Source: Thalassobacillus devorans
GTDB taxonomy: Bacteria; Bacillota; Bacilli; Bacillales; Halobacillaceae
Assembly (NCBI RefSeq): GCF_900176565.1
Contig: NZ_FXEH01000006.1
Coordinates: 1,426,001 to 1,490,000, forward strand
Length of the DNA stretch: 64,000 bases
Direction: 5' to 3'
Notes under the pieces: model-generated
Told to the model about the DNA's origin: nothing
Seen by the model: only the letters and a program-made list of their open reading frames with translations
The model's database searches: none
Translations under genes and position numbers: made by a program
Part shown: positions 29,221 through 50,070 of the stretch, in pieces
How positions within the stretch are numbered: position 1 is the stretch's first letter
Layout of the letters: the number at the start of each line of letters is the position of its first letter

Positions 29221-29246
29221 TTTTTACCGCTCCTTTCCGATATAAT

Positions 29247-29273
29247 AAAAAAGACGCCCGGTTAAGGGCGCCC
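29247..29273 (-). terminator. Intrinsic terminator inside the 26-31 kb gene block
   Basis: On the minus strand GGCGCCC pairs with GGGCGTC around a six-base loop and is followed by TTTTTTATT. It lies 12 bp after the 100-residue gene at 29285-29587 and before the 103-residue gene. It would therefore reduce or regulate tape measure expression. Confidence 0.7.
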
Positions 29274-29284
29274 TAATTGCTCGA

Positions 29285-29587: not shown

Positions 29588-29682
29588 ATAAAACCTCTCC
29601 TTTTAATTTATTAGTTGCTTCGTTGCTTCACTGCTCCGCGAGTGACGGGACGGACCTCACATCATCGCAGCGGGGTATGCGG

Positions 29683-30441
29683 TTAGATTTTATGTCTTCG
29701 CTCATGCTTTACTTCGATATCCGTATTGAAGTAGCGTTTGTTCGCCATTTTCAACGTCGTATAAGGCAGTGTACATGCATCAGGCAGTTTTTGCGCCGCC
29801 TTAGCGAATACCTCCTCCGCGCTTTCACGCTGTCTTACGTCGCGATAAATACTGCGCAGCTGCTTTTCTAACGCAGGCTTACCGGCTGCCGCCTGCATAA
29901 CGCTTGGCAATTCGTGTGATAGCGCTAGTTTCGTGCGATCGTCCATATACGGTAATTTCTCAGCTAATATGTCAATAGCGCCCTGCCCATCGCCCATTGC
30001 AATTTCTGCGGCAAGTGACCGCGCTGTATGGGCTGCTTGTTCGCGTGCTGTATTACTGATTGCGACGCGCTTGTTGGCCGCCTCTTCCTTAGCTGCATGG
30101 CGGATCTCATCGATGAAAGCCTTGTATTCCGACTGGATATTATTTACGTTGGCGTCTAACTCCGCCTTAAGCTCGTCGATTGCGGCCTGTTTAAACGTTT
30201 CATCTCGGTATCGGGGATCAATACTTTTTTCGATTGCTTCCGCTTTCTGCTTAAAGTTCGTCACTTCGCGCTGTACTTTATCCTGGTAAGCGTCTACCTC
30301 AGGTATGTTCATACCGATGGCGGCTTTCTTCTCGTAAATTTCCGCCGCTGTTTCCTTTGGCAATTCGTAAAGCTCGCCCGCCGCATACATTTTCCCGTCT
30401 ACTTCTGTTTTCTCCGTCATAAACACTTTTTCGTAACTCAT
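29683..30441 (-). CDS. Hypothetical helical protein (252 aa), phage-structural-like
   Basis: The start at MSYEKVF (30439-30441) has GGAG six bases upstream; an ATG four codons earlier is also in frame. The N-terminal ~45 residues (TEKTEVDGKMYAAGELYELP) form a small beta module. The remainder is long amphipathic helix rich in Ala, Glu and Lys. Such a layout is seen in phage head-tail or scaffold-like proteins, but no family is recognised. Its start region overlaps the stop of the 97-residue gene, indicating coupling. Confidence 0.65.
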   Translation of the reverse strand: MSYEKVFMTEKTEVDGKMYAAGELYELPKETAAEIYEKKAAIGMNIPEVDAYQDKVQREVTNFKQKAEAIEKSIDPRYRDETFKQAAIDELKAELDANVNNIQSEYKAFIDEIRHAAKEEAANKRVAISNTAREQAAHTARSLAAEIAMGDGQGAIDILAEKLPYMDDRTKLALSHELPSVMQAAAGKPALEKQLRSIYRDVRQRESAEEVFAKAAQKLPDACTLPYTTLKMANKRYFNTDIEVKHERRHKI

Positions 30442-30443
30442 AA

Positions 30444-30737
30444 TTATCTCCATCTCCTTGTACTCATTTTTATTTGTGGTAAATCTGCGTTACTGTCGAC
30501 CTCGTCTACGGTCATACCGTTTAACTTAGCGACCTGATCGAGCAACTCCCTGGCGCTGTTATACGCCGCAAAGTCGCCGCGCTGCTTCGTCTTATACGTC
30601 GCTTTAAATATCGTCTTGCCACTCGCCTGTTCAATCGCTAGTAGGGCGACCTTCTTTACGCCTGCTTCCGGCCCCGGATCCACGTCGATTCTTGCGGTTA
30701 TTAAGCCGGCGTTGTCCGACTTGTCTTCGCTATACAT
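30444..30737 (-). CDS. Hypothetical protein (97 aa)
   Basis: The ORF starts MYSEDKSDN (AGGAGTTGAGG upstream) and ends LPQIKMSTRRWR. It has an alternating beta pattern (ITARIDVDPG, KKVALLAIEQ, TIFKATYKTK) and then a helix. It is unrecognised. It overlaps the upstream 241-residue gene by 8 bases, so it belongs to one operon. Confidence 0.6.
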   Translation of the reverse strand: MYSEDKSDNAGLITARIDVDPGPEAGVKKVALLAIEQASGKTIFKATYKTKQRGDFAAYNSARELLDQVAKLNGMTVDEVDSNADLPQIKMSTRRWR

Positions 30738-31455
30738 TCGCCTCAACTCCTGACGTCATTGGTTCGTTAAATACCTCGATTACATCGTTTTTTCTTTCCG
30801 CGGCATCCTCCGCTAACGCTATGACCTCCGCCGCGCCTTGCTTAGCTTTTTCCGTTTTGATTACGAGCTTGCCGGCGAATCTATCAGCGAAGTTACGGCG
30901 CAGGCTTATGTTAATCATGCGCACTACCCCGACTTCATCGGCCGCCAGTTGCCGCTCTACATATGCCGCTACTTTGTTCGCTGCTTCGGCGTTGCTCAGC
31001 GCCTGGCCCTCGTACAAGCTGGCGATGCTTAACGTGTTACGCGCGTCATATTCGATCACGCCGATAGCCGTATGTTTACGACCGCTTGTCTTATCGAGGT
31101 ATGCCTTGAAATACCTGCGGACATGCCGACCTTCTTCGATATCCGCGTATTGATCCTCGAATCTATCTGCGTCCATGTTAACTCGCTCCTTCTTCGTGTT
31201 AATGCCGATCGTTAACGGATAAAGCGACAAGCCTTGCGCCCTGGCTGCGCTTATAATTTGCATAACGTCCGTATCAATGCCGCGGCTTAGGACCTCGCCA
31301 GCTCCGCTTGTTAACGCATGCCCCGCGTCGGTTACGCTTAATACGGTCGTGCCTGGCGTTATAGGCGCATGGCGGCCGGCTTTATCGCGGGCATGTAACT
31401 TCAATTCCGTCGGCTCATTCCGATAGTAGCCGTAAGTCGTGTACAAACATTTCAT
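30730..31455 (-). CDS. Hypothetical protein (241 aa)
   Basis: A strong ribosome site (AAAGGAGG) precedes the ATG. The N-terminal half is MKCLYTTYGYYRNEPTELKL and onward, with beta-rich content. The C-terminal half has a helical Ala-rich region and RMINISLRRNFADRFAGKL. No family is recognised. It is first of a tightly coupled run with the next three genes. A 137-bp gap separates it from the Cys-rich gene upstream. Confidence 0.65.
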   Translation of the reverse strand: MKCLYTTYGYYRNEPTELKLHARDKAGRHAPITPGTTVLSVTDAGHALTSGAGEVLSRGIDTDVMQIISAARAQGLSLYPLTIGINTKKERVNMDADRFEDQYADIEEGRHVRRYFKAYLDKTSGRKHTAIGVIEYDARNTLSIASLYEGQALSNAEAANKVAAYVERQLAADEVGVVRMINISLRRNFADRFAGKLVIKTEKAKQGAAEVIALAEDAAERKNDVIEVFNEPMTSGVEANV

Positions 31456-31592
31456 TTCGGCTGCCTCCTTTGCGTTACGCGTTTAAAATGCATTTTCAAG
31501 GGGGGCAAGGTGTTTATACCTAAACCGGAAATAATGCCCTAAAAACCCCCATATATCAGGCTTTTTCAGCCCCTAAAGCGTAACGGTATTGG

Positions 31593-32009
31593 TCACTTAT
31601 TTGTCGAGTCCTTCAAACGTTTATTTTTCATCCGTTTCTTAGCTTGCTCGCGCTTTATTTCTTCGCGGCATGCCTCGCAGTATTTCTGGCGGTTACTCGA
31701 TTTCTTGTAACGGACAGCACAACGCTCGCATGTATCCGGATATTCCGTCTTTGATTTCTTTAACGGATAGTTGTCCGGGAAGTGTTCGAGGTACTCGTCG
31801 AATAACCCCGGGTCTGCCGGTCCGACCGCCTTCATATAGTGCGGGCATACATTCGCTATCACCCGATCAGCATCGAACGATAAGACGCACTTGCCGTGCA
31901 TGGTCAGCTTGCAGCCGTCTTCGCCTTCGTGATTAGCGCATTGACTGCGGGCGTGCCGGTGCAGACGTGTTTGTAGCGATTTAACTTGTCGTTTGTTCAT
32001 CGTCATCAC
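31593..32009 (-). CDS. Cysteine-rich VLP-like / zinc-ribbon protein
   Basis: The 138-residue protein opens MNKRQVKSLQTRLHRHARSQ (after three alternative codons) and has Cys residues in CANHEGEDGCKL, GKCVLSF and ANVCPHY. This pattern resembles the Cys-rich VLP domain of plasmid and integrative-element proteins. The C-terminus has a CxxC-N14-CxxC zinc ribbon (CERCAVRY, YCEACREE) and a very basic tail. It probably binds nucleic acid. It is translationally coupled to the 51-residue ORF upstream. Confidence 0.6.
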   Translation of the reverse strand: MMTMNKRQVKSLQTRLHRHARSQCANHEGEDGCKLTMHGKCVLSFDADRVIANVCPHYMKAVGPADPGLFDEYLEHFPDNYPLKKSKTEYPDTCERCAVRYKKSSNRQKYCEACREEIKREQAKKRMKNKRLKDSTNK

Positions 32010-32136
32010 CCGCTTTCAACGTAAAAAGGGCAGCTATTAGCCGCCCCTCTTTTCGTACTTCTACTGTTCGCTCATATCGGTTATCCTTGCTTATGCGCGC
32101 AATGGTCCGCCTGCTATCCGTGTAAATTTCCCTCAT
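31981..32136 (-). CDS. Small basic protein (51 aa)
   Basis: The ORF starts at the ATG at 32134-32136, within the ATGA overlap with the upstream 49-residue ORF. It ends 29 bases inside the Cys-rich gene. The sequence starts MREIYTDSRRTIARIS. Overlap at both ends points to coupled translation. No family is recognised. Confidence 0.5.
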   Translation of the reverse strand: MREIYTDSRRTIARISKDNRYERTVEVRKEGRLIAALFTLKAGDDDEQTTS

Positions 32137-32282
32137 GCGCGATCACCGCCGTTGATACCGTCTACCTTGTCGTCAATTGCTTCCACCTTGCGCTCAATAC
32201 GCGATAGGCTCGATCGAATCTGCCCCACCGCTAACAATAAGTCTTCCAGCGTTACCTGCTTCGCTTGTTTTTTCATCTCCAT
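32133..32282 (-). CDS. Small coiled-coil protein (49 aa)
   Basis: The ORF starts MEMKKQAKQVTLEDLL and ends KVDGINGGDRA. A helix with heptad-like spacing (SSLSRIERKVEAIDDKV) suggests a short coiled coil. AAGGGG lies upstream. Its TGA overlaps the ATG of the next ORF by four bases. It is not recognised. Confidence 0.55.
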   Translation of the reverse strand: MEMKKQAKQVTLEDLLLAVGQIRSSLSRIERKVEAIDDKVDGINGGDRA

Positions 32283-32303
32283 AATTAATCCCATCCCCTT
32301 AAA

Positions 32304-32444
32304 TTAGTTTTGTTTGAATTCTTCTTGCATCGCCTTAATCGCTTCCCTAAGCTCGTAACTAACGTACGTCTTACCGGTGCTTTCAACGATTGCCAGCGCC
32401 AGTGTATAAATTGCCTTTGCTTCTACGTTATTGCTCGCTTCCAT
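32304..32444 (-). CDS. Small hypothetical protein (46 aa)
   Basis: The start MEASNNVEAKAIYT was chosen by AGGAGGGG; an upstream TTG frame start to 32501 has no site. The sequence is acidic and helical and ends EAIKAMQEEFKQN. It is unrecognised. It lies 21 bp upstream of the 49-residue ORF. Confidence 0.5.
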   Translation of the reverse strand: MEASNNVEAKAIYTLALAIVESTGKTYVSYELREAIKAMQEEFKQN

Positions 32445-32532
32445 ACCGTCCCCTCCTCTCTCAGTATGTATTTGCGTAATATCCTCCCGCGGACTTGACA
32501 AGGTTTTTAACTAACCGCGGTCCAGTCGGATA

Positions 32533-32742
32533 TCAACGTATAAAAAATAAGCCCCCGTTAAACGGCAAGGCCCACAAGTTATTTTCGTCGGCATATTTTT
32601 TCATCCGCTCTTCTAAAGGCGTTTCAACGTCGCCGATAAAGTTAACGGGATACCACTCCGCAGGCTCCGCAGTGACTAGCGGATTTATTTTATTCGCCGT
32701 TGCGAGCCTTATCGTCTGTTGTCGCGTCGCTACTTCGAGCAT
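32533..32742 (-). CDS. Small hypothetical protein (69 aa)
   Basis: The frame is open from 32778, but the ATG at 32740-32742 (MLEVATRQQ) has GAGGTGG upstream and is preferred. The sequence ends NNLWALPFNGGLFFIR. Its 5' part overlaps the end of the 105-residue gene by 53 bases in another frame. It is unrecognised. Confidence 0.5.
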   Translation of the reverse strand: MLEVATRQQTIRLATANKINPLVTAEPAEWYPVNFIGDVETPLEERMKKYADENNLWALPFNGGLFFIR

Positions 32743-33007
32743 TTCCACGCTGCCACCTCGCCTCATGGTAGTCGTCATAATCGATCGCTTGCCGCCATTG
32801 GTTCGTTAGTTGGTGCGCAAATTCTTCGGTAACTACGTCGCTTTCCACTAGCTCACCGTCGACCATTCGATAATAATGCTCGTCAGCCTCGGAAATAACC
32901 AACCGATCCTTCTCCGACTCAAACTCGTAAACAACGTCGAGGCTATGTCCTTCGCCTTCTATTTTTCCGGCAAAGTTTTCGCTAATATGTTTTATTCCTT
33001 TATTCAT
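32690..33007 (-). CDS. Hypothetical acidic protein (105 aa)
   Basis: The start MNKGIKHISENFAGK has GAGGAGGG upstream; the longer frame to 33085 overlaps the winged-helix gene and lacks a site. The sequence has a beta-rich middle (HSLDVVYEFESEKDRLVIS) and an Asp/Tyr-rich end. It follows the winged-helix gene by 19 bp. No family is recognised. Confidence 0.55.
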   Translation of the reverse strand: MNKGIKHISENFAGKIEGEGHSLDVVYEFESEKDRLVISEADEHYYRMVDGELVESDVVTEEFAHQLTNQWRQAIDYDDYHEARWQRGNARSSDATTDDKARNGE

Positions 33008-33026
33008 ACGTTTCGCCCTCCTCGTT

Positions 33027-33938
33027 TTATTGCGCAAACTGCGCTTTGATTGCGTCCAAGTCTTTACCTCCGCCGCCATATACAACGCTAGGGTTAACGA
33101 CTACTCTGCGCTCTCTACGGTCATGCGGATTAATTACGTATGTGAATACCGGCTTGCCGTCTAACCATACGCTGTTTAACTCGCTGCTTAGGCGTCTTTC
33201 TTCCTTATATCCGAGCAGCGCCGCCAGTTTCTTAACGCTCATAGGACGTATAAGCGACGGGTCTGTTTCGTCCGGGTTATAACTTATAATGTTCGTCGAG
33301 AAGTTAAGGAACGGCAGCACGCTGTAAATTATCGCCAGCTTACCGACTGACCGCCCGTTGTAAGTTTCGTATAATTCGCGCACGGTCTTACGGAACACGC
33401 GAATATGTTCGTAGTCGCTTACGTCGTAGTCGTGGGCCTTAATGTCGCCGCGATAGAATACCATCGGGTTAACGAAGATTTCGCCAGTCTCGTTATTCTC
33501 CTTAATAATACCCTCGTCCATCAAACGCTTATAAAACTCGCGGAACCTTTTCGGCGATATTCCGATTTTATTTTGCAAGTCGCGCTTACGAATGATATGT
33601 TTGCCGCTTTGCAGGCGGTTAGTGCCCCAAGCTACGAACGTGCCAACGTACATAAGGCGTGCCAGGTCTTGCTTTGTTAGGCTTGGGAATCGATCTTCCA
33701 TCGTAGTTGTCTGCGCGAATAACGCCAGTACAAACTTACCGTTTTCGTCCGAGTGAATGTCCATCTTTGTTTTATCCTCGTATCTACGCCTTTGCTTTTC
33801 CGTCTGTACAATACGGGTTTCTACGAATTCAACTTCTTGTCCAAACTCGTTATATATCTTTCCGTCGATAGTTACGTGATTTTCCTTCGCCCGTAATGCG
33901 TTCGCCTTCGTTTTCGGTCCTAAGTCCTCCCATTTCAT
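33027..33938 (-). CDS. Winged-helix protein, candidate replication initiator (RepL-like)
   Basis: The protein has 303 residues from the ATG at 33936-33938 (GGGGGATGA upstream; TTG two codons earlier is possible). The central winged-helix segment is HIIRKRDLQNKIGISPKRF, then REFYKRLMDEGIIKENNETG and EIFVNPMVFYRG. This strand-helix-helix-wing pattern resembles Firmicute RepL/MarR-type replication and transcription proteins. A second HTH-like segment lies near MSVKKLAALLGYKEERRL. It lies downstream of two XRE genes in one transcript. Replication is an inference. Confidence 0.6.
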   Translation of the reverse strand: MKWEDLGPKTKANALRAKENHVTIDGKIYNEFGQEVEFVETRIVQTEKQRRRYEDKTKMDIHSDENGKFVLALFAQTTTMEDRFPSLTKQDLARLMYVGTFVAWGTNRLQSGKHIIRKRDLQNKIGISPKRFREFYKRLMDEGIIKENNETGEIFVNPMVFYRGDIKAHDYDVSDYEHIRVFRKTVRELYETYNGRSVGKLAIIYSVLPFLNFSTNIISYNPDETDPSLIRPMSVKKLAALLGYKEERRLSSELNSVWLDGKPVFTYVINPHDRRERRVVVNPSVVYGGGGKDLDAIKAQFAQ

Positions 33939-33952
33939 TATCAATCATCCCC

Positions 33953-34189
33953 CTAGTTTTTTCGTTTTAATACCGCCTTTAATTCGCGGTTACGTTTAAC
34001 AAACGCCTGAAAGCCTTCGTCCGTCGGGTCGAACTTTAATGCGATCTTTGCGCATAGCCCGTCTGTAACCTTACGCCTGCCTGCTTCTACCTCCGCTACC
34101 GTCGAGTATGTGACTCCGATATGCTCCGCGAAGTCCGGCTGCGACATGCGCAAGTAATAACGGATCAGCTTAACCGTCTCATTTTCCAC
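33953..34189 (-). CDS. XRE-family helix-turn-helix protein (78 aa)
   Basis: The HTH fills most of the protein: MSQPDFAEHIGVTYSTVAEV followed by EAGRRKVTDGLCAKIALKF. It is a small DNA-binding regulator without a peptidase domain. It lies between another XRE gene and the winged-helix gene with spacings of 15 and 14 bp, so the three form an operon. Confidence 0.75.
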   Translation of the reverse strand: MENETVKLIRYYLRMSQPDFAEHIGVTYSTVAEVEAGRRKVTDGLCAKIALKFDPTDEGFQAFVKRNRELKAVLKRKN

Positions 34190-34204
34190 CGTTATGCCTC
34201 CTAG

Positions 34205-34420
34205 TTAGTTTAATCGGTCGTGGATATCGATCAGCATTGCAATTTCTTCGTCAGTTACCGGCAGTGCTTCACGTAGTAGTTGCTTACGGCCTGGCGGTAT
34301 ATCCTTATAGCCCGCTTCAAGCTGCGATATGAAAGTCAGTCCGACGCCGACCTCACGTGCCAGCCGCGCCTGGTTAATACCGAGCGCCTTACGTACAATC
34401 TTTAACGTTTTTACATCCAT
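34205..34420 (-). CDS. XRE-family helix-turn-helix protein (71 aa)
   Basis: The HTH ALGINQARLAREVGVGLTFI continues SQLEAGYKDIPPGRKQLLRE, typical of phage Cro/CI-like regulators. It is the first gene of the operon leading to the winged-helix protein, with AGGGGG upstream. It may be a Cro-like counterpart of the plus-strand repressor; this is inferred from fold and position. Confidence 0.75.
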   Translation of the reverse strand: MDVKTLKIVRKALGINQARLAREVGVGLTFISQLEAGYKDIPPGRKQLLREALPVTDEEIAMLIDIHDRLN

Positions 34421-34467
34421 TAATAAAACCCCCTAATCTAATAAATTTTATCTTACTTTAGAATCTT

Positions 34468-34503
34468 AAAAATAAGGCCCGTACAGTCATAAACCGTACG
34501 AGC
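34468..34503 (-). terminator. Intrinsic terminator upstream of the XRE/winged-helix operon
   Basis: GCTCGTAC (minus strand) pairs with GTACGGGC with one wobble, followed by CTTATTTTT. It would end transcripts coming from the 35-36.7 kb genes. Confidence 0.65.
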
Positions 34504-34725
34504 TAATATAACCGTTTGGATATCCCTAACCTAACGGCCTACACGTAAATATAACGAGGCAGTAACGCAATGTGAGAGATTATATACCCCTCTATAAAGA
34601 TAGGTTACATTCGGCCCCAGTTTGGCAGGTATAAAAGTGAATTGTAATATAAATGTAATATTTATGGTATCTAATTCCAGATATTCACGCAGCCCTTGCC
34701 GCTTATTCTTTAGGTAAGATAATAT

Positions 34726-34776
34726 TACGTGCCTTTTACGTCCCATAATCGGGCGAATACGTGCCTTTTACGTCCC
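34726..34776. repeat. Two 19-bp direct repeats, 32-bp period
   Basis: TACGTGCCTTTTACGTCCC appears twice without mismatch, about three helical turns apart. Each copy also contains two ACGT cores. It could be a binding site array for an element protein. Confidence 0.8.
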
Positions 34777-34957
34777 TATGTGTAACACGGGTTTATTCGA
34801 CCTATACTCGCTCATGCTCGATTATGCTTCGATTTACGCCCCTATTTGCTAAGTCTTCAATATCCCAGTATCCCACCTTTTACGGTGAAACCTTTTTTAG
34901 CGAAGAGGTATATACATACGCGTATTGTCATTAGTTATTAGCAGCGAACGAAGTGAG

Positions 34958-35188
34958 GTGCAGGCGTTAGCCGCAGGGTTTAGGTTATAACGTTAATAGC
35001 GGTAAAGTCGGTAAAGGCGCTTTATACTCGTTGTTAATCTTAAATTTCATTGCGCCCACATAAAGATCATGTGGCCGCGTAGGGTTATCATTCCGCTACT
35101 ACCATACGAAGATGTTAATAACACCGATATACGTACTATGCGCACAAGCCGTCAGGCGCAGTGCAGGCGTTAGCCGCAGGGTTTAGGT
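34958..35188. repeat. 28-bp perfect direct repeat pair (34958-34985, 35161-35188)
   Basis: Both copies run from GTGCAGGCGTTAGCCGCAGG to GGTTTAGGT without mismatch, 203 bp apart. The second copy ends just before the stop of the 133-residue gene. The sequence between contains no ORF. Confidence 0.85.
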
Positions 35189-35190
35189 AA

Positions 35191-35592
35191 TTACGTATAT
35201 ACGCGCCCCTTGCTTCGCGTTAGTTCCGCCTGCTTCGCCTCTTCCTCCGCCAGTTGCCGCATTATCTCTATTTCCGTCGACTCACCGAAGTATTCCCACG
35301 GAAAGCAAAACGTATATGCGCTGCAATGTCCGAGTAATATCTGATCGCCGTTAAACGGTTCTAATTCGTCTAAGTATACGCCATGCTCCGCCAGTAGCGC
35401 GTAAAACTGATCCGTATTTAATTCGATACCAACGGCCGGGCACGCCTGGTTTTCGTAAATCAGCTTGGTTAACTCGCCGCCCTCTACGATTAATATCGCA
35501 TTGCCAGCGCCTCGATAGGCCGCCTCTACCTCCGTGCCTGCCAGTTCGATAAATGGTACTCCGCCTGTAATTGCCGTTCTAATTTCGTACAT
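35191..35592 (-). CDS. Hypothetical protein (133 aa)
   Basis: The acidic, soluble protein opens MYEIRTAITGGVPFIELAGT and has a central DELEPFNGDQILLGHCSAY and a charged tail (QLAEEEAKQAELTRSKGR). The ribosome site is AAGGAGG. No family is recognised. It is last in the early minus-strand operon running from 36712. Confidence 0.6.
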   Translation of the reverse strand: MYEIRTAITGGVPFIELAGTEVEAAYRGAGNAILIVEGGELTKLIYENQACPAVGIELNTDQFYALLAEHGVYLDELEPFNGDQILLGHCSAYTFCFPWEYFGESTEIEIMRQLAEEEAKQAELTRSKGRVYT

Positions 35593-35648
35593 AATATCGC
35601 CTCCTTATACTTTATACTTCGTAAACTAGGCCGGTAGTTGCGTGGTAA

Positions 35649-35858
35649 TTACGAAGTTACGAATCTGATTACCATATAGAAAAACGCGCCAGTACAAATT
35701 ACGCCGCTCAATACGTAATAAACGGCCACAAACGCTTCTACCGCTTTGTTATTTATTTCTGTAAGCGGGGCCATTGTTATTATAAGAGCGTAAAAAATAG
35801 CGCTTGAGCCAAGCCCAGCAAAAAAGACGATAAAAAATAACTCAACTAAATTCATCAT
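35649..35858 (-). CDS. Small membrane protein (69 aa, two helices)
   Basis: Two hydrophobic segments (LVELFFIVFFAGLGSSAIFY and YYVLSGVICTGAFFYMVIRF) are separated by a short charged loop. GGGAGG lies upstream of ATG ATG. Size and topology are holin-like, but small two-helix proteins of unknown function are also common in such operons. Confidence 0.6.
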   Translation of the reverse strand: MMNLVELFFIVFFAGLGSSAIFYALIITMAPLTEINNKAVEAFVAVYYVLSGVICTGAFFYMVIRFVTS

Positions 35859-35873
35859 AAGTAAAACCTCCCG

Positions 35874-35960
35874 TTATAACGCCCAGCTCAGCGCCCCATA
35901 CAACGCCACCAACGCCGCCACAAAGCTGCCCACCATCGCCATGTCTACGCGGTCATACAT
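35874..35960 (-). CDS. Very small membrane peptide (28 aa)
   Basis: The ORF reads MYDRVDMAMVGSFVAALVAL and continues YGALSWAL: one membrane helix. Its ATG overlaps the stop of the 46-residue ORF (TATGTATGA), so it would be translated by coupling. The function is unknown. Confidence 0.45.
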   Translation of the reverse strand: MYDRVDMAMVGSFVAALVALYGALSWAL

Positions 35961-36093
35961 AGCGCTCACCCGCCATTGCGCGCTTATACGCAAGTAGACG
36001 TTCATACCTGCGCGGCTTACCGTAGCTAACGTGTGACCTGTCGCCATATTCGGCTACCTTACGCGTGTAATAGGAAACCCTACGATCAGTCAC
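35953..36093 (-). CDS. Small basic protein (46 aa), GTG start
   Basis: The GTG at 36091-36093 overlaps the TGA of the 122-residue gene (CGGTGACT) and has GAGGAGG about ten bases upstream. The sequence starts MTDRRVSYYTRKVAEYGDRS and is strongly basic, rich in Arg, Lys and Tyr. Size and charge would fit a DNA-bending protein such as an excisionase, but no fold is recognised. Confidence 0.5.
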   Translation of the reverse strand: MTDRRVSYYTRKVAEYGDRSHVSYGKPRRYERLLAYKRAMAGERYV

Positions 36094-36458
36094 CGCCCTA
36101 ACACCTCCTCTATAGGTAGCGTTGAATTCATAGCCGACCTTACTTCCGAAGATTTCTGGCAGCGCCGTAAATATTCATCGGTAAGCTGGCCGAAGTTGTG
36201 GCGAAGTAGATCGTACATAGGCTGGAGCTTAACAAGTTCGTCCTTGACTGCCCGCCGTTTTTGCAACGTATCTTTTAACCGTACGATAAAGTCATAACTG
36301 TCCGCCCTATCTAACGGAGCTTTTTCGATTTCGTGATAAGTGGCCGATACCTCTTTATCAAGGCGGCTTTGCATCGCATTTAACGCTTTAAATTTAACCG
36401 TGATATCTTCGTAGAAATCCTTTAGCTGTTCGTAGTAATTTTCCGCGGTTACAATCAT
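36090..36458 (-). CDS. Hypothetical helical protein (122 aa)
   Basis: The sequence starts MIVTAENYYEQLKDFYEDIT and is nearly all amphipathic helix (about 20-115). It starts four bases inside the end of the upstream gene (ATGA-type overlap) and overlaps the 46-residue ORF. It is an unrecognised early-operon gene. Confidence 0.6.
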   Translation of the reverse strand: MIVTAENYYEQLKDFYEDITVKFKALNAMQSRLDKEVSATYHEIEKAPLDRADSYDFIVRLKDTLQKRRAVKDELVKLQPMYDLLRHNFGQLTDEYLRRCQKSSEVRSAMNSTLPIEEVLGR

Positions 36459-36712
36459 GCGCTCACCTCCCCTTGCAACTCGAATATAATACGATCAACG
36501 TGCGCCTGGTCTTCGAGGCTGTTTACGACAATGTCCTCCAGCCAGTCCGGCAGACCGTATGCAGCTAGGTACTGGCGTACAATTGCCTGCTCCAGCGCCG
36601 CAGCCTTTTCGCAATCACCCTTGTTAACGCGTTTGTATTCCGTTATTAGCTCCTGGACCTTGCCCGTATAACTAATCTCATTGTCGCGGCTTACCCACAT
36701 TACGTTACACAT
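36455..36712 (-). CDS. Hypothetical protein (85 aa), first gene of the early operon
   Basis: The sequence starts MCNVMWVSRDNEISYTGKVQ and is helical and acidic. AGGGGAGC precedes the ATG. It lies directly behind the operator-covered minus-strand promoter, the position of an early gene in a phage switch. No homologue is recognised. Confidence 0.6.
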   Translation of the reverse strand: MCNVMWVSRDNEISYTGKVQELITEYKRVNKGDCEKAAALEQAIVRQYLAAYGLPDWLEDIVVNSLEDQAHVDRIIFELQGEVSA

Positions 36713-36744
36713 TTGAATTGCTCCCCTTTATACGTTTATTCGCT

Positions 36745-36820
36745 GATACGCGTTTACGTATCTAACTTGTATACTACTATACGCTTTTACGTATAATACG
36801 TCAATACGTAATTGCGAATT
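36745..36820. promoter_or_regulatory. Divergent early promoter with palindromic repressor operators
   Basis: Two perfect-armed 18-bp dyads are GATACG-N6-CGTATC (36745-36762) and TATACG-N6-CGTATA (36778-36795), 33 bp centre to centre. A weaker site starts at 36803 (AATACG-N6-CGAATT). The minus-strand promoter TTGACG (36799-36804), 17 bp, TATAGT (36776-36781) contains the second dyad within spacer and -10. A TTGAAA-N17-TAAATA promoter (from 36824) faces the XRE gene. This is a lambda-like switch. Confidence 0.78.
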
Positions 36821-36872
36821 TATTGAAAAAAGTGTACGATACAAATAAATACTGAAAGCAGGGGATCATATA

Positions 36873-37094
36873 ATGAAACTACGTATTAAACTCGACCATT
36901 TAATGAAGGAGCGCGGCCTTACTCAGCGTGAGTTATCCGAGGAGGCAGGCGTTAGGCAGGCGGCCATATCGCAATTAGCACGGGGCTATGTAAGTCGAAT
37001 ATCCATCGATCATATAGAACGGATAGCGACCGCGTTGAATATTACGGATATAAACGAGTTGATTACGTTGGTCGACAACGAAGAAGACGCGTAG
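36873..37094 (+). CDS. XRE-family repressor of the element (73 aa)
   Basis: It is one of the few plus-strand genes in the element. The HTH is MKERGLTQRELSEEAGVRQA followed by AISQLARGYVSRISIDHIER. The protein is only the HTH fold, with no LexA-type protease domain, so RecA-driven self-cleavage is unlikely. It is divergent from the early operon across the operator region and most likely represses it. A hairpin at 37103-37128 follows the gene. Confidence 0.78.
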   Translation: MKLRIKLDHLMKERGLTQRELSEEAGVRQAAISQLARGYVSRISIDHIERIATALNITDINELITLVDNEEDA

Positions 37095-37102
37095 GCGGGG
37101 CT

Positions 37103-37128
37103 GACCTTGCGGGCACAAACCGCAGGTC
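37103..37128 (+). terminator. Hairpin after the repressor gene
   Basis: GACCTTGCGG pairs with CCGCAGGTC (one bulge). It is followed by AAATTTT rather than a clean T-run, so it is a weak terminator candidate. Confidence 0.45.
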
Positions 37129-37791
37129 CTGAAATTTTGCGGAAAAATTTTTCGGAATGGCTTGCGCGTATGGGATTCCGTTTTTATGGCGCACATGGCT
37201 TGCCGCTTTAGTCCGATAAAGTCAAAGTTATTTTTCTTGTAAGAAACGTCCCGAGCCCCGGCAGCAGTTTTCCGCGTATATGCCCGGGGGGCTATTTCCG
37301 CACGCCAGCCCGCGCATGGCCGCCAGCCCCTGCGTATACATTTCGCGTATAAACATACGAAAACTAGTTTACATAATGCTGATTTGCGGTACTTGGGGGT
37401 ATCCGCGAACCCGCGCGGTTAAGCCATTCGTGAAGTGCGAAAAATTATCGATTATACACGTTTTTATACACGTTGATTTGACGGGGTTTATCCGTCGTTA
37501 ACCTCGTCGGCATATCGGTTAACATTGCATAAAGTGGCGGGGTGATCGGGGGTCATACGACAGTACGGCGAAGACTGGCCGGCTGCGGGGTCGGCTGAGG
37601 ATTTTCGAGGGGCGTCCGTCGTGAACGGCTGGCCTGGCTTTCCTACGGACATAACCCGCCAACATTACGAGAATTTGTTACGGTCAGACACGGCCTATTT
37701 CCGTCCTTATATCCGTTTCATGCCCAGTACCTTCTTATGTACGTATATCCGAGTATTCCAGTCGGTTTTATCGGATGTAACACACTCGATG
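37129..37791. other. Non-coding, partly GC-rich region
   Basis: No convincing gene is seen in ~660 bp; a plus frame at 37621-37848 has no ribosome site and runs into the RNA promoter. The segment has C-runs and G-runs, hairpins (for example CCGCGAACCCGCGCGG near 37409) and TACG-rich words. It could hold an origin or packaging-type signal; nothing decides this. Confidence 0.4.
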
Positions 37792-37910
37792 TTTACACTC
37801 CAGGCCGACGGTGGTATAGTATGTATAAATGAGAAACCGTCAGGGTGAGAGCTAACGGTCTCTCGTAAATTTCCCGTTTTAACCTCGGCTACTCGTCGGG
37901 GTTATTTTTA
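37792..37910 (+). ncRNA. Candidate antisense (antitoxin) RNA with promoter and terminator
   Basis: The promoter TTTACA (37792-37797), 17 bp, TATAGT (37815-37820) leads to a predicted start near 37827. The transcript has a 10-bp stem (37831-37840 with 37855-37864, one mismatch). It ends in a terminator AACCTCG/CGGGGTT (37881-37887, 37897-37903) followed by ATTTTTA. The RNA of about 85 nt overlaps the last codons and 3' region of the small membrane peptide gene on the other strand, as in TxpA/RatA-type modules. Confidence 0.6.
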
Positions 37911-37990
37911 TGTTTAAGATAAAGCACGGAAAGTACGGACATGGCTACGAAACTAGCGCCACCTATTTCGAAGAAAATGTTTACTTCCAT
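37889..37990 (-). CDS. Candidate type I toxin, small membrane peptide (33 aa)
   Basis: The ORF starts MEVNIFFEIGGASFVAMSVL and ends SVLYLKHKNNPDE: one membrane helix and a charged tail, similar in size and layout to Fst/TxpA/BsrG-type or holin-like toxins. A very strong ribosome site (GGGGAGGTAAC) is preceded by a perfect 6-bp hairpin (CGCTGA/TCAGCG) in the leader. The 3' part is overlapped by a convergent RNA. The toxin role is inferred from arrangement. Confidence 0.6.
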   Translation of the reverse strand: MEVNIFFEIGGASFVAMSVLSVLYLKHKNNPDE

Positions 37991-38154
37991 TCAGTTACCT
38001 CCCCGTCGCTGATCCGTATATTTCAGCGTCTTATTTTTCCATTTTTTATTCTAAACTAAAGATACCACATAAAAAGAATCTTAATCAATATATTGTGTTC
38101 TTTTAATAAAAAACACACCAGATATTGTGTTTAGAACGAGGTGATTCGTTTTTG
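37991..38154 (-). promoter_or_regulatory. Leader of the small peptide gene and TTGTGTT boxes
   Basis: The minus strand has TAGAAT as a possible -10 near 38050 and the SD-proximal hairpin near 38012-38033. Nearer the winged-helix gene stop, ATTGTGTT occurs near 38091 and 38120, with AACACACC between. The same box recurs inverted upstream of that gene (38989 and 39047). Confidence 0.4.
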
Positions 38155-38952
38155 TCAACCGTAAATTTCCACAAACTCTCGTAGCTTAATCGCTCGGCTA
38201 CACTTCGCCCAGGTAGCGTAGAGGTAACCGTAGAGGTCACGTACTTTTCCCGCTTTATATCTTCGTATTACCGCATAAAATGCCTCTATGTACTCGTTAT
38301 GGTCTTCCGCCTTAATCGTTCGGTCAACGGTTGCTTTTGCACGGTAAAGAACGCCTATCACACGATACAACTCCTTAACGTTAAAGAACGGTGCCATTAC
38401 GTTATATAACTCTTGCGGTAACGAGTGCTTTAAAGAAATAGTTGTCGCTATCGGTTCTTTCGTATCTACTGTGCTTTTAAGGTTATGTTTAAATTCAGAT
38501 GGTTCGGGGCTGTCGTTTACCGTCGATACCTTGTCCTCGTTAGGTTCAACGGTTGCCTCTGCGGTGTCGTCGTGAGGTGCCGCGGGTGCTAGTGCTTCCG
38601 CTAGGATACGAATTACATTAACGGACTTCTTACGACTTTTTCCATATCTACTCCACTTCTTCAACGTTGGTACCTTATCGATGAAACCATATGACTCGAG
38701 GGTTTTAACGGCACGGATCACTGTACGACGACTGTATCCTATGTCTTTCGCTATTGTATCGTACTTTGCGAATGAAACTCCGATTACACGAAGACTTGAC
38801 CGTCCAAAGAAACGTAGCACCTCGATTACGCTGGCCGGGCGCTCGTCGGCACGTAGTCGGTCTATGTATTCGTAGATAGTTGCGTCCATGTCGGACTGTT
38901 TCGTAAAGGTTGCGTACTCTCTTAGCTCCGTTAGGTCTGTCGTTAGATACAT
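38155..38952 (-). CDS. Winged-helix protein, candidate replication or regulatory protein (265 aa)
   Basis: The start MYLTTDLTELREYATF was chosen by GGGAGG eight bases upstream. The N-terminal domain has a helix-turn-helix (YDTIAKDIGYSRRTVIRAVK, then TLESYGFIDKVPTLKKWSR). A Thr/Glu/Pro-rich linker follows, then a helical C-terminal domain ending GYLYATWAKCSRAIKLREFV. The two-domain layout recalls initiators and helicase loaders of plasmids and phages. AACACAA boxes flank the gene, suggesting autoregulation. Confidence 0.6.
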   Translation of the reverse strand: MYLTTDLTELREYATFTKQSDMDATIYEYIDRLRADERPASVIEVLRFFGRSSLRVIGVSFAKYDTIAKDIGYSRRTVIRAVKTLESYGFIDKVPTLKKWSRYGKSRKKSVNVIRILAEALAPAAPHDDTAEATVEPNEDKVSTVNDSPEPSEFKHNLKSTVDTKEPIATTISLKHSLPQELYNVMAPFFNVKELYRVIGVLYRAKATVDRTIKAEDHNEYIEAFYAVIRRYKAGKVRDLYGYLYATWAKCSRAIKLREFVEIYG

Positions 38953-38988
38953 TTCGATTGCCTCCCGATTGAGGCACGACAAAAGGCC

Positions 38989-39054
38989 AACACAAACATA
39001 CGTTCGGTTTAATGATTAGACTTGCCGAAAATACGTATTTGTGTTATTTTTAAA
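38989..39054. promoter_or_regulatory. Inverted AACACAAA boxes upstream of the winged-helix gene
   Basis: AACACAAA (38989-38996) and TTTGTGTT (near 39046-39053) are inverted copies, each next to an ATACG/CGTAT word. They bracket the likely promoter of the 265-residue protein and would suit a dimeric regulator. Confidence 0.45.
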
Positions 39055-39065
39055 CTATGGTTGGT

Positions 39066-39098
39066 TGGGTGCCCTTTGCGGTGCCCTTCTTTTTTTTT
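39066..39098 (+). terminator. Plus-strand terminator between winged-helix and integrase genes
   Basis: GGGTGCC pairs with GGTGCCC (two wobble pairs) around CTTTGC, followed by CTTCTTTTTTTTT. No plus-strand gene precedes it directly, so it implies an unseen plus transcript or insulates the integrase gene from antisense. Confidence 0.6.
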
Positions 39099-39100
39099 GT

Positions 39101-40072
39101 TTATATATTTAGATTGCTTAACGGCGAATGTCGCTGGTATTTCCGGCCTACTTCCTGATCGGTAAAATCAAGGTATGCCTGTTGCGTTACCTCAACCGAC
39201 GAATGTCCGAGTATACGGCTTAACGTCAGCCAGTCGCCGCCATTTAGCAGGTAATATTTCGCAAAATTGTTTCGTAGCTGGTGCGGCTGTACGTTTATGC
39301 CAACTAGCCGGCCGTGCTTCTTAAAGGCGCTCTCTATGTTCCGTATGTCCATCTTATTGCCACGAATGGACGGGAAAACGTAGGGGCTGTCGGTGTACCT
39401 GTCGCGATATTCTAACCACGACTTTAAACTCCGCCCCATCTTCTGCGAGTAATAGACGTACCTATCGTGCTTGGACTTTGTTTTACGTAGCAGCATCGCC
39501 CCATTGCGTATGTCAATATCGGCCGGCATTACTTCCAATAATTCGCCTATCCTGGCGCCTGTATCGAGTATTAACCGTGCGATGACCCAATTGCGGTATT
39601 CGTGAAACTTAGACACGTCGAACGAACGGAAAAACAGGTGCAGCTCATTTTCGCTAAGTAACTGCTTTACCTTGCGTTGCGGCTTAATCTTCTCGATGCC
39701 TTCGCACGGGTTTTTACGTATAGCCTTATCGTTGTACAAGTAGTTAAAAAAGGCGTTGATATTTCGCTGATAATTAGCCAACGTCGTTTCGCTGACTTGT
39801 TTGCCGTAGTCAGGCCTGTTGTGCGGGTTATTCGTCTTAGCCGTGTAATCATCCGCCAGCGCCCCGTACTTGCCCCGCTCTCTTACGTAGCTAAAATAAT
39901 TACGTATGTGTTCCGTCTTAACCTTTGCCGGATCCTCGACGCCGTACTGCTCGTACAGATAACGCTCAAATAGCCGCAGTGTTTGCTCATAGCTGCGCAA
40001 TGTCTTCACGGATAGCCCCCGCGAGTTACAGTCCATCATATAACGATCGACCTCGATTAAAAATTTGCGCAC
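39101..40072 (-). CDS. int: Tyrosine recombinase (integrase) of the element
   Basis: The 323-residue protein has a SAM-like N-terminal DNA-binding domain (about 1-110) and a catalytic domain. The catalytic set is Arg in LDTGARIGELLE, Lys in RKTKSKHDRYVYY, HQLRNNFAKYY, GHSSVEVTQ and the nucleophile Tyr in QAYLDF near residue 303. It resembles XerC/D-type phage and element integrases. The GTG start lies one base after the T-run of a terminator whose 3' arm supplies the ribosome site. It is 134 bp from attR, as expected of the integrase of this element. Confidence 0.93.
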   Translation of the reverse strand: MRKFLIEVDRYMMDCNSRGLSVKTLRSYEQTLRLFERYLYEQYGVEDPAKVKTEHIRNYFSYVRERGKYGALADDYTAKTNNPHNRPDYGKQVSETTLANYQRNINAFFNYLYNDKAIRKNPCEGIEKIKPQRKVKQLLSENELHLFFRSFDVSKFHEYRNWVIARLILDTGARIGELLEVMPADIDIRNGAMLLRKTKSKHDRYVYYSQKMGRSLKSWLEYRDRYTDSPYVFPSIRGNKMDIRNIESAFKKHGRLVGINVQPHQLRNNFAKYYLLNGGDWLTLSRILGHSSVEVTQQAYLDFTDQEVGRKYQRHSPLSNLNI

Positions 40073-40073
40073 G

Positions 40074-40114
40074 AAAAAAGCCCTCCCTTACCGGACTAGC
40101 CGATAAAGAAGGGC
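40074..40114 (-). terminator. Terminator/attenuator hairpin holding the integrase ribosome site
   Basis: On the minus strand a 15-bp stem runs from GCCCTTCTTTATCGG to CCGGTAAGGGAGGGC (three wobble pairs), followed by TTTTTT and then the integrase GTG. It serves as the new 3' terminator of spo0A. The AAGGGAGG of the 3' arm is the only Shine-Dalgarno sequence for int. A possible int promoter, TTGTCC-N16-TATATA (40152-40157 and 40130-40135), lies just upstream. Confidence 0.8.
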
Positions 40115-40199
40115 GTAAATTGGCTTACGTATATACGTTTTTTGGGTTTGCGGACAAGTTTATCGCCTTATTTGCGTCAGTTGTCGGCTTAAAACCGCG

Positions 40200-40979
40200 T
40201 CATGACGCTTTATGTTCCAGACGCAGGCGGTCGGCTACCATCGCAATGAATTCGGAGTTCGTAGGTTTTGCTTTAGTATTTGAAATGGTATAACCAAATA
40301 AAGAAGAAATAGATTCCACATTACCTCTGTTCCATGCTACTTCAATGGCATGGCGAATGGCACGTTCTACCCGGGATGCAGTTGTCTGATATTTTTTTGC
40401 GATGTCCGGATACAATACTTTAGTGATCGATCCCAACAGTTCGATATCATTATACACCATTGAGATTGCTTCACGTAAATACATGTAGCCTTTAATATGA
40501 GCAGGTACTCCAATCTCATGGATAATATGAGTAATGCTTGTATTAAGGTCAGGCTTCTGGCCAGCTTTAGCGCTTGTTCCAATTGCTTTACTGATTGGAT
40601 CATTAGAACCATGGATCTGACGGATCTGATCCGTCAGGGAATCAAGGTCAAATGGCTTCAGCATGAAATATGAGGCGCCTAAATCCACCGCTTTTTTCGT
40701 TACTTCTTCTTGACCAAAAGCAGTGAGCATGATTACACTAGGTTTTTTCTTTAATTCCAACTGCTTCATTTGGCTCAAAACAGCTAGTCCATCCATATGC
40801 GGCATAATAATATCCAGTACCAGTACATCAGGCGTCGTTTCTTTCAGCATCTCAAGACATTCTTTTCCATTATATGAAGTGCCGACTACTTCAACATCCT
40901 TAATGTCTTCAAAATAGTCCTCCAGCAACTTGATCAACTCACGATTATCGTCTGCCAAACCAATTTTGATTTTTTCCAT
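40200..40979 (-). CDS. spo0A: Sporulation master regulator Spo0A (3' end rebuilt by the element)
   Basis: The protein has 259 residues from [14 protein letters not shown] (GGAGG upstream); a longer frame to 41036 lacks support. The receiver domain (1-120) has the acidic pair ADD, phosphoacceptor Asp in LVLDIIMPH and Lys in LKPFD. The C-terminal effector domain carries the recognition helix [20 protein letters not shown] and ends RLRLEHKAS. It is full length with an unchanged C-terminus, so it should be functional. The last ~20 codons lie in attR, and the final codons and terminator come from the element. Confidence 0.96.
40207..40259. repeat. attR: attR: 53-bp direct repeat inside the 3' end of spo0A
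   Basis: It is identical to 25323-25375. It spans codons for residues N-S-E-F through H-K plus the start of the Ala codon of Spo0A. Left of it the sequence is element DNA, right of it spo0A. Confidence 0.95.
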
Positions 40980-45974: not shown

Positions 45975-47867
45975 TCAAGCCCTTTTTTGTTTACTTGGTG
46001 TCATTTCTTTTAAATTTGAAACGGCAGCTTCTTTAGTAAGGTCAATTTCTTTCAGTAATTCCGGTACTTTTCCATGTTCAATGAAACGATCAGGAATCCC
46101 CATACGTTTAATCACTTGATTTCTATATAAGTTTTCTTCAGCAAATTCAAGAATGCTTGAACCGAAACCACCTTGTAACACGGCCTCTTCGATTGTAAGA
46201 ATTGGCAGGTCTGCCTGCATAATGTCATGCAGCATTGCCTCATCCAAAGGCTTGATGAACCTTGCATTTACAACCCTTACTGAAATCCCTTGCTTTTTTA
46301 GTTCTTCGCTTGCTTCTAAAGCCAGTTCAATCGTTGTCCCGAAAGTAAGAATGACGGCATCTGAGCCTTCCTGGAGTACTTCCCAGCTCCCAATATCAAT
46401 CAATTTATGTTCCGGATCTACCTGAACGCCTTTCGCATTACCTCTCGGGTAACGGATTCCAATTGGCCCGTCTTCATGCTTCATTGCTGTATGAACCATA
46501 TGCTGAGCTTCGTTCTCATCCTTAGGCATCATTAAGGTCATATTTGGCAGACTTCTTAGAAAAGCTATATCGAAAACACCCTGATGTGTTTCGCCATCTG
46601 CTCCTACAAGTCCAGCCCGGTCGATACCGAATACAACATTGAGTTTTTGCCGGCATACATCGTGCACCACCTGGTCATAAGCACGTTGTAAGAAAGTAGA
46701 ATAAATCGCCAGGAACGGCTTCATACCCTGTGTAGCCAACCCTGCCGCGACTGTGGTTGCATGCTGCTCTGCAATTCCAACATCAAATAAGCGATCAGGA
46801 AATTCTTCACCGAATTTTTCTAATTTAGAGCCCAGGATCATCGCTGGTGTAATAGCAACTATACGTTCATCGCCTCTTGCCTCACGACGAAGTGCTTCTG
46901 TTATGACAGAACTCCATGCAGGCGGGGCGGCGTCAGGTTTGATTTTCTCTCCAGAATCGATTTTATACGGCCCGACCCCATGCCATTTGTCTGTTTGGTC
47001 AGACTCTGCCGGATGGTAACCTTTCCCCTTTTGTGTCATAACATGTACGATTACTGGTCCTTCTGTTTTCTTGGCATAATTAAGGTTTTCTAACAAATCG
47101 TTAAAATCATGACCATCCACTGGACCATAATACGTAAATCCAAGTTCTTCGAAAAACATACCAGGCACAACAAAATACTTCATACTATCTTTAAGACGTT
47201 CGGCAGCCTGGGCAAGCCTTCCACCGACAGCAGGAATTTTTTTAAGTAACCATTCCAGGTCATCTTTTGCCCGGTTGTACTTCCCTGCACTTCTCATTCG
47301 TCCTAAAGCGTTATGAAGCGCTCCGACATTTTTGGCAATGGACATTTCATTATCATTGAGAATCACTGTGATGTTCTTTTTTTCATGTCCAATATGATTC
47401 AATGCTTCAAGAGCCATTCCACCCGTTAATGCACCGTCCCCGATGATTGGCAGAATAGCATGTTTTTCATCTCTTACATCCCTGGCAATCGCCATTCCCA
47501 TTGCTGCTGAGAGGGAGGTGGAACTATGACCCGTTTCCCAAAGGTCGTGCTCGCTTTCACACCGTTTTGGGAAACCGCATAATCCTTGATATTGCCTTAA
47601 TGTATCAAACTGACCTGCACGGCCTGTCAATATTTTGTGAATGTAGGATTGATGACCAACATCAAAAATAAACCGGTCTTTGGGACTCTCGTAAACCTTG
47701 TGAAGTGCTAGTGTCAATTCCACAACGCCTAGGTTGGCTCCAAGATGACCGCCTGTTTTTGAAAGGTTTTCAATTAAAAAAGTTCTGATGTTTGAGGCTA
47801 GCTGTTTCAAGTCTTCGTTGGATAGATCCCTGACAAACGAAGGATCTTGAATTTTTTTTAGATCCAT
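45975..47867 (-). CDS. dxs: 1-deoxy-D-xylulose-5-phosphate synthase
   Basis: The 630-residue thiamine-diphosphate enzyme makes DXP from pyruvate and glyceraldehyde 3-phosphate, the entry to the MEP isoprenoid pathway. The cofactor motif is [16 protein letters not shown] near residue 140. The transketolase beta domain has [15 protein letters not shown] near 425. It lies between oapA and tlyA, in the same run as ispA. The length is typical. Confidence 0.96.
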
Positions 47868-47886: not shown

Positions 47887-48486
47887 TTAACGTGTTTTTC
47901 TGGAAGCCTCGGCTGGTTTCGATACGATATTTATTTTCAATTTATTTTCAATCCATGCGATCACTCTTGCCGCAAAAAAAATAATTTTCGTAGAAGAGTG
48001 AATAGCTAAAAACTTGCCGATAGCTTTACCGCCGACAGTCAGTGCTGCAACTATACTAGTCATGATAACAGAAATAGTTATTTGCAATGTGGATCCTTCC
48101 GAATGCCCAAAGGAATTGGCCAGCTGGATAACCACAATAGCAGAGGCTGTCCCACTAACGATACCGGAAATATCCCCTATAACGTCATTACAGAAGCTTG
48201 CGAACCGGTCGGCATTTCGGACTATGAGAATAGCTTGTTTGGCTCCCGGCACTTTTTCTGCAGCCATTGCATGGAATGGCGGTTCTGAGGCAGCAGTTGC
48301 TGCAATTCCTAACATATCAAATATAACACCAATCAGCACTATAATGAAAACGATAACTAACCCTATATACCAGAATACACCGCTCAGCACCGAAGAAGAA
48401 ATCACTGAAAAAATAGCCGCTAACACAAATGTGATAACGGCGATACTTATACTGAATCTTAATGATTTTTTTAATTGATTATCCAT
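47887..48486 (-). CDS. oapA: OLE RNA-associated membrane protein OapA
   Basis: The 199-residue polytopic membrane protein has hydrophobic segments near 13-33, 38-62, 108-127 and 135-155, then a basic C-terminus ([10 protein letters not shown]). The segment [20 protein letters not shown] is characteristic. The gene directly follows the OLE RNA gene and precedes dxs, the conserved place of oapA. Known from Bacillus halodurans: OapA binds OLE RNA and takes it to the membrane, and the complex affects tolerance to cold, alcohols and Mg2+. Confidence 0.92.
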
Positions 48487-48519
48487 TTATACCCTCTATC
48501 AGTTTGGTAATAATTTTAT

Positions 48520-49137
48520 GTAAGGAAAGGAATGGTCACCCAATAGGTAAAAATTGCAGCTTAGGTCCAGTAGGTTTTCCCATCCAGGTACCGAATGTCA
48601 CCATTCTGGCGGTTCCCCATTAAACCCGGATCGACTTCGTCTCCGAAAGTCGGACTGGATTACCACTTAGTCCGCACTATAATTCCTATTGTGTGTCTTG
48701 CCAAACAGTCTAGGAGATTTCCTCAACAGCCTTCGACCGTTCCTTAGCCTCTTTTGCAGGCTTGATTTCATATGGCGAAAAGGCTGCATAAAATGGTGGC
48801 CATCCATTTTTATGCATCTTTAATTCCATAATCCCCTCAAGTCCACTCAAGGCAGGCTACGCTGCTCATACAGAATTCCTCCATATAAAGCAGGTTCATA
48901 CCCCATTCCATCGTGGCTTCCGGCTAAGAAACCACCACAGATATGGGCCTCCGCGGAAGCGGGGTCAACGCCCACATGCCTTTGTGGATCGCCCCACTAC
49001 CTTAACTCCCAGCATCGACCCAAGGCTGGGCGCCTCAAGCCAACACAAGGAACTTCATCGATATGCCCTTTGGCGGATTTTTAGGCCCGCCTTCAGGAAC
49101 GGAGGGCTGACTAGAATACTGCACCATCCCTTATGTA
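48520..49137 (-). ncRNA. ole: OLE RNA (ornate large extremophilic RNA)
   Basis: About 610 bases of highly structured, non-coding sequence lie between ispA and oapA-dxs on the same strand, the exact genomic place of OLE RNA. Many complementary segments are visible, for example GGCGGGCC/GGCGGA near the 5' end, AGTCCGACTTTCGGAGACGAAGTCG near 48640 (in part) and a long stem CCATTTTATGCA/TGCATAAAAATGG near 48785-48820. The 5' end follows from a promoter at 49144-49172; the 3' end is estimated. No intrinsic terminator separates it from oapA. The RNA is among the largest structured bacterial RNAs, of unsettled biochemical function. Confidence 0.93.
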
Positions 49138-49143
49138 ATTAAT

Positions 49144-49172
49144 AATATACCATAAACGTCAGACTTCCTCAA
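49144..49172 (-). promoter_or_regulatory. Promoter of OLE RNA
   Basis: On the minus strand TTGAGG (49167-49172) and TATATT (49144-49149) are 17 bp apart. It lies between the ispA stop codon and the first conserved OLE bases, so OLE can be made apart from ispA. Confidence 0.72.
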
Positions 49173-49185: not shown

Positions 49186-50070
49186 TTAATGATCCCTGTC
49201 GCTAAGGTGATCAATCAAGGTAAACAGCATCGTATTTCCCACCTCAGCCTTTCTCAGCGAATTTTTTGCCCGATTCACATAGATATTTTTAGTTTTGAGG
49301 GAACCTTCTATTCCAAGTATACCTGGATAAGTACTTTTGTTATTAATAGTATCGCTGCCCACAGGTTTACCCAGTTTAGCTGCGTTACCACTAACATCTA
49401 GGATATCATCCTGGATTTGAAAAATAATTCCTAACAAGTCAGCGGTCTCTACGAGCGATTGGAGCTGCCTTTCATTTGCCCCTCCAATGTATGCCCCGGA
49501 CATTAAAGCGAAACTGATCAGCCTTCCAGTTTTCAAGTGATGAATCTTTTCCAGGCTTTCCAGTGGAATTTCTTTGCCCTCGCTTTCCATATCCATTAAT
49601 TGACCTGCCACCATTCCAAGGGCACCGCTTGCGATCGAAAGCTTTTTCACCAGGTGTACCTTCTGTTTATCAGATAGACCTTCCGCTTCCATGATCGCTT
49701 GGAAACTTAAAGTTAATAAAGCATCTCCGGCAAGGATAGCTGTCGCTTCATCGAACTTTTTGTGATTGGTCGGCTGTCCCCGCCGTAAATCATCATCATC
49801 CATAGCTGGCAGGTCATCATGGATCAAAGAATACGTATGAATCATTTCCAGGGCCGCCGCTACGGGGAGAACATCCTTTTTCTTACCGCCAAAGGCTTCA
49901 CAGGAAGCCATCATCAGAATAGGACGCAGCCGTTTACCCCCGGCCCGGATAGAGTATAGCATGGAGGTTTTTAAGCTGGGCAGGATTGGTTTATTGGTAA
50001 TATAATCTTCCAGATAATCATTGATGAGAGCCTGGTGTTTTTCTAAATATAAAGAAAGTGACTGATCCAC
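49186..50070 (-). CDS. ispA: Farnesyl diphosphate synthase
   Basis: The 294-residue polyprenyl synthase has the first Asp-rich motif LIHDDLPAMDDDDLRRG near residue 83 and the second FQIQDDILDVSGN near 222. It condenses IPP with DMAPP and GPP to farnesyl diphosphate. It overlaps xseB by one base. Confidence 0.95.
   Translation of the reverse strand: MDQSLSLYLEKHQALINDYLEDYITNKPILPSLKTSMLYSIRAGGKRLRPILMMASCEAFGGKKKDVLPVAAALEMIHTYSLIHDDLPAMDDDDLRRGQPTNHKKFDEATAILAGDALLTLSFQAIMEAEGLSDKQKVHLVKKLSIASGALGMVAGQLMDMESEGKEIPLESLEKIHHLKTGRLISFALMSGAYIGGANERQLQSLVETADLLGIIFQIQDDILDVSGNAAKLGKPVGSDTINNKSTYPGILGIEGSLKTKNIYVNRAKNSLRKAEVGNTMLFTLIDHLSDRDH

Follow-up and report, generated by a model that had tools for sequence, protein, structure and literature searches.

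The 64-kb stretch of Thalassobacillus DNA analysed here (64,000 nt, hereafter called the window) carries on its minus strand the gene order ispA, OLE, oapA and dxs (Table 1). Thalassobacillus is a genus known for moderate halophiles. The Rfam covariance model of the OLE RNA (RF01071) matched the region between ispA and oapA with 522.5 bits, against a cut-off of 50 bits (E 2.2e-150), and the match, 628 nt long, spans model positions 1-616, corresponding to a full-length OLE RNA. The same search indicated a single copy in the 4.07-Mb genome. The locus has the standard OLE RNA-OapA form and adds one further member to this known class of giant stress-response RNAs. A complete locus of this kind had been proposed in a first-pass annotation of the sequence, with a search by the Rfam OLE model as the suggested check, and the full-length match above the gathering score bears the proposal out. 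The length of about 610 nt given there for the region between the two genes is too short, as 699 nt separate the ispA stop from the oapA start and 628 nt of these match OLE. A chance or false match was ruled out by the E value (2e-150) and by the covariation described below. The start of oapA lies approximately 30 nt downstream of the end of the match and is preceded by a ribosome-binding site, AGAGGG, at 48497-48492. The wider minus-strand order we take to be nusB, folD, xseA, xseB, ispA, OLE, oapA, dxs, tlyA, argR, recN and spoIVB, the neighbouring genes other than ispA and dxs having been named by sequence recognition.

Table 1 Features of the OLE RNA-OapA locus, with positions in the window
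Feature	Position	Strand	Basis
dxs	45975..47867	-	TIGR00204, 918.9 bits
oapA, 199-aa membrane protein of the OLE ribonucleoprotein	47887..48486	-	98% identity to Thalassobacillus devorans protein
OLE RNA gene, full length	48516..49143	-	RF01071 match and covariation in 128 distinct sequences
3' hairpin, P12.2/P13 region, likely OapB site	48591..48612	-	Position and structure in Rfam alignment
L9.3 loop with palindromic GGCC	48796..48803	-	Sequence present
Kink turn 3' strand, ...AAGGUAG	48997..49008	-	G144 and G145 (H. halodurans numbering; partners of C85 and U84) present
Kink turn 5' strand, AUCGAUGA (holds H. halodurans A83-U84-C85)	49055..49062	-	Alignment to H. halodurans OLE
L4 A-rich loop, CCUAAAAAUCC	49075..49085	-	Sequence present
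Predicted OLE promoter	49144..49172	-	Promoter scan and conservation in relatives
ispA, farnesyl diphosphate synthase, upstream neighbour	49186..50070	-	NF045485, 384 bits (cut-off 275)

Elsewhere in the window, an apparent integrative element of about 14.9 kb (25323-40259) is situated in the 3' end of spo0A. Its tyrosine integrase gene (39101-40072, minus strand) adjoins spo0A, and it also encodes a RepL-like protein (33027-33944). A perfect direct repeat of 53 bp (25323-25375 and 40207-40259) resembles an attachment-site duplication by which the C-terminus of Spo0A is restored. A SAM riboswitch (RF00162, 90.5 bits) was found at 8432-8542, upstream of an open reading frame (8628-9680) whose product resembles homocysteine S-methyltransferase.

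OLE was found in 53 of 61 relatives and in 284 of the 398 genomes of a phylum-wide sample, nearly all of them outside the class of the window genome. For this clade, the earlier description of its hosts as a limited set understates the distribution. In the eight relatives lacking OLE, ispA and dxs are located near each other, and no OLE remnants were found between these two genes, not even in the 590-nt gap of L116. Splitting of OLE by an insertion was considered for genomes giving several partial matches and was rejected; most of the pieces sit at the ends of contigs and are likely to reflect the assembly. Far more diverged OLE sequences (170-282 bits over the full model) were observed at loci L160, L161 and L169 (genomes G330, G485 and G111), which belong to two families of the phylum, and these may be structural variants.

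The predicted OLE promoter, downstream of the ispA stop codon, consists of a -35 element TTGAGG (49172-49167), a spacer of 17 nt and a -10 element TATATT (49149-49144), directly preceded by TGG to give the extended -10 TGG TATATT (49152-49144). A general promoter scan of the region returned 13 promoter-like matches compared with 9.7 in shuffled sequences, which is barely above chance, and the promoter was therefore judged by its position and conservation. An alternative internal promoter at 48704-48676 (minus strand) had a higher scan score but lies inside OLE and was rejected. The motif TTGAGN15TGNTATAWT, derived from the relatives, has a single match in the 64 kb, at the OLE promoter, where 0.01 would be expected.

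The upstream sequences of OLE were compared in 95 distinct regions from the window genome and its relatives (L001-L110), with dinucleotide shuffles of the same regions (100 rounds) as the control. TG followed by a -10 element with at least five of six matches was present in 92 of the 95 (mean 2.4 and maximum 6 in the shuffles), and all elements, including a -35 with at least four of six matches, in 75 (shuffle maximum 3); these matches are consensus-based, and the sequences share ancestry and are not independent. The extended -10 is nearly always located 15-19 nt upstream of the conserved GGTGCAG of OLE. In Halalkalibacterium halodurans, where the locus was located by an exact match to a published primer sequence (PMC12054373), OLE is preceded at the same position by ATTGAGC-17-TATAAT with TGG. 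Many clostridial-type OLE loci, inspected by eye, have TGNTATAAT upstream, at a more variable distance. The dedicated sigma-A promoter after ispA which the first-pass annotation had suggested thus gains support from positional conservation in the relatives and in H. halodurans.

The upstream comparison also revealed a conserved TA step after the -10, at the expected start, and transcription is predicted to begin near 49136-49137 (A 49136), which would give an OLE RNA of about 621 nt. Nucleotide 1 of the published H. halodurans OLE numbering and construct corresponds to the last T of the predicted -10, and the natural RNA may therefore start several nucleotides later. The conserved promoter would in this way fix the likely 5' end of OLE RNA.

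No terminator-like site was seen in a scan between OLE and oapA, in agreement with the earlier observation. Co-expression of OLE and oapA from one start, which had also been claimed, remains a prediction, and transcription reading through from upstream probably contributes alongside the internal promoter, since the H. halodurans cluster is described in a review as one polycistronic RNA (PMC12265935). For the same reason, the internal promoter could be minor. The review, and the tight packing of the genes on one strand, are also consistent with OLE being mainly processed from a long operon transcript which starts upstream, at xseA, xseB, ispA or further, with the OLE-proximal motif weak or inactive. 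This appears rather unlikely, given an extended -10 conserved far beyond the shuffles and found in H. halodurans as well. In addition, OLE reportedly ranks fifth in abundance, after rRNA and tRNA, when cells are under ethanol stress (PMC12054373), which is easier to explain if it has a promoter of its own. A dedicated OLE promoter and the polycistronic report are compatible, provided that the internal promoter adds to the read-through.

The order ispA, OLE, oapA was conserved in all 80 named related loci. The isoprenoid coupling downstream of OLE, as it had first been described, holds for the window, where dxs adjoins oapA, and dxs is next to oapA in 54 of the 80 loci; in the other 26, which keep OLE and oapA, tlyA follows oapA directly. 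None of the 26 genomes without adjacent dxs contained a dxs exceeding the TIGR00204 cut-off, whereas 11 of 11 controls with adjacent dxs did. Conversely, a prokaryotic HMG-CoA synthase exceeded the TIGR01835 cut-off in 26 of 26 of these genomes and in 0 of 11 controls, each isoprenoid pathway being marked here by one gene only (dxs or HMG-CoA synthase). The groups lacking dxs are Halolactibacillus, Paraliobacillus in part, and the Virgibacillus-Oceanobacillus-Lentibacillus group. On a tree of IspA, OapA and XseB, the dxs trait needs four changes, at least three of them forced by strongly supported branches. Loss of dxs is the likely direction, since the relatives lacking OLE also carry dxs after ispA. 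In the loci without dxs (L055, L057, L061, L070 and 22 others) the -35 element of OLE is often weaker and TAGA-like, with the extended -10 kept; this pattern, seen in Virgibacillus-like loci, follows the phylogeny.

Gene clustering has prompted the suggestion in the literature that OLE is functionally tied to isoprenoid synthesis by the DXP pathway and acts through it (PMC12265935), and the adjacency of dxs in the window and in the majority of the loci would fit this. Such a tie is improbable. That OLE-oapA outlasts the exchange of DXP for mevalonate speaks against any obligatory dependence on dxs. The pair has been retained through at least three changes of dxs state on the tree, and ispA adjoins dxs also where OLE is lacking. 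The comparison of the loci provides evidence that dxs is a dispensable, non-obligate neighbour of OLE-oapA. With natural dxs loss, hints at DXP isoprenoid synthesis taken from the neighbouring genes deserve less weight for the function of OLE.

When the Rfam structure was placed on the window OLE, 157 pairs had both residues present, of which 150 were standard (127 Watson-Crick) and seven non-standard. Alignment of 128 distinct OLE sequences with MAFFT gave 92.6% paired cells and 116 pairs in which both sides had changed at least once (3120 cells), compared with 40-45% paired and 65-77 pairs with two-sided changes when the partners were slid by 1-3 columns; the sequences are related and the counts are not counts of events, but the contrast with the slid control is large. 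The kink-turn bases U84, C85, G144 and G145, at which OapC binds OLE in H. halodurans (PMC9723947), are the same in the window OLE. Both dimerisation loops were found at the sequence level: L4, through which the two molecules of the cryo-EM dimer make a symmetric A-A contact, and L9.3, whose GGCC forms the intermolecular kissing loop (PMC12286853). The OapB site is likely located in the 3' hairpin, following the assignment in PMC9723947.

The window OapA shares 98% identity with the protein of T. devorans CECT 7046, 95% with that of T. cyri and 94% with that of another T. devorans strain, which places the organism in Thalassobacillus. Its DxxxD motif, D101-V-I-G-D105, is kept in 80 of 80 related loci. 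The match to CNNM was weak and below the cut-off (E 2.9e-4), and weak CNNM similarity of OapA has already been published (PMC11332333). The OapB candidate is a KOW-type protein encoded between map and infA (L111:1182-1517), matching 'OLE-associated protein B' of PDB 7k9b with E 1.5e-34. The OapC candidate is an L7Ae-like protein encoded between rpoC and rpsL (L112:1495-1746), matching YbxF/OapC with a best E value of 5.7e-23. Judging from these matches, all three partners essential in H. halodurans (OapA, OapB and OapC) are encoded in the genome. Two full-length CNNM (MpfA/CorB-like) proteins were also observed alongside OLE-OapA (G000 contig C4, 855575-856156 and 695331-695861). MpfA has been reported to anticorrelate with OLE (PMC11332333), and their presence here indicates that the anticorrelation is statistical and not absolute.

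Decay or loss of function of this OLE copy, to which the seven non-standard pairs might point, is scarcely credible, given the full-length match, the 98% identity to a close relative, the mostly kept pairs, the presence of all partner genes and the intact protein-binding and dimer motifs.

Taken as a whole, the locus is almost certainly a bona fide OLE RNA-OapA locus with a predicted promoter of its own, whose products would form a ribonucleoprotein independent of dxs; the RNA, its structure, the partner genes and the promoter conservation come from the present analysis, whereas the assembly and function of the particle we infer from the literature. Transcription of OLE would start at a strong sigma-A-type promoter of its own, with an extended -10, just past the ispA stop codon, and is predicted to run on through oapA, because there is no terminator between the two. 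Homology with H. halodurans suggests that OLE would dimerise via L4, L5-L7 and L9.3 and would associate with OapA at the membrane; the kink turn would be bound by OapC (YbxF) and P13 by OapB, and bS21 would probably bind as well. According to the literature, the membrane ribonucleoprotein may help cells to adjust to low temperature, alcohol, Mg2+ and poor carbon sources. It would be independent of dxs, since relatives which have swapped DXP for mevalonate keep OLE-oapA intact. As such, the locus is one more well-formed OLE RNA, and the comparison with relatives is more useful. It strengthens the case for a dedicated promoter made in the first-pass annotation and adds evidence of dxs dispensability. 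The extended -10 promoter is probably dedicated and strongly conserved across Bacillota, with the 5' end of OLE a primary start and not only a product of processing, and OLE-OapA probably DXP-independent through repeated replacement of dxs. In the literature cited here, which does not cover the 2006 discovery paper, neither the promoter and 5'-end point nor the dxs-loss point was found stated.

Among known systems, the Mg2+ exporters of the MpfA/CorB family (CNNM-CBS-CorC) have a membrane domain distantly related to OapA (PMC11332333), and OapA differs from them in having no CBS and CorC domains. Compared with known OapA, the window protein has no notable difference, being likewise adjacent to OLE, about 200 aa long, weakly similar to CNNM and equipped with DxxxD. 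The window OLE differs from that of H. halodurans C-125 by ordinary divergence only, mostly in the variable arms that lie between J6/7 and P9, with neither a new nor a missing domain. The two RNAs are alike in length, secondary structure, kink-turn residues and the GGCC kissing loop, and the two loci in having oapA and then dxs downstream and the same promoter upstream.
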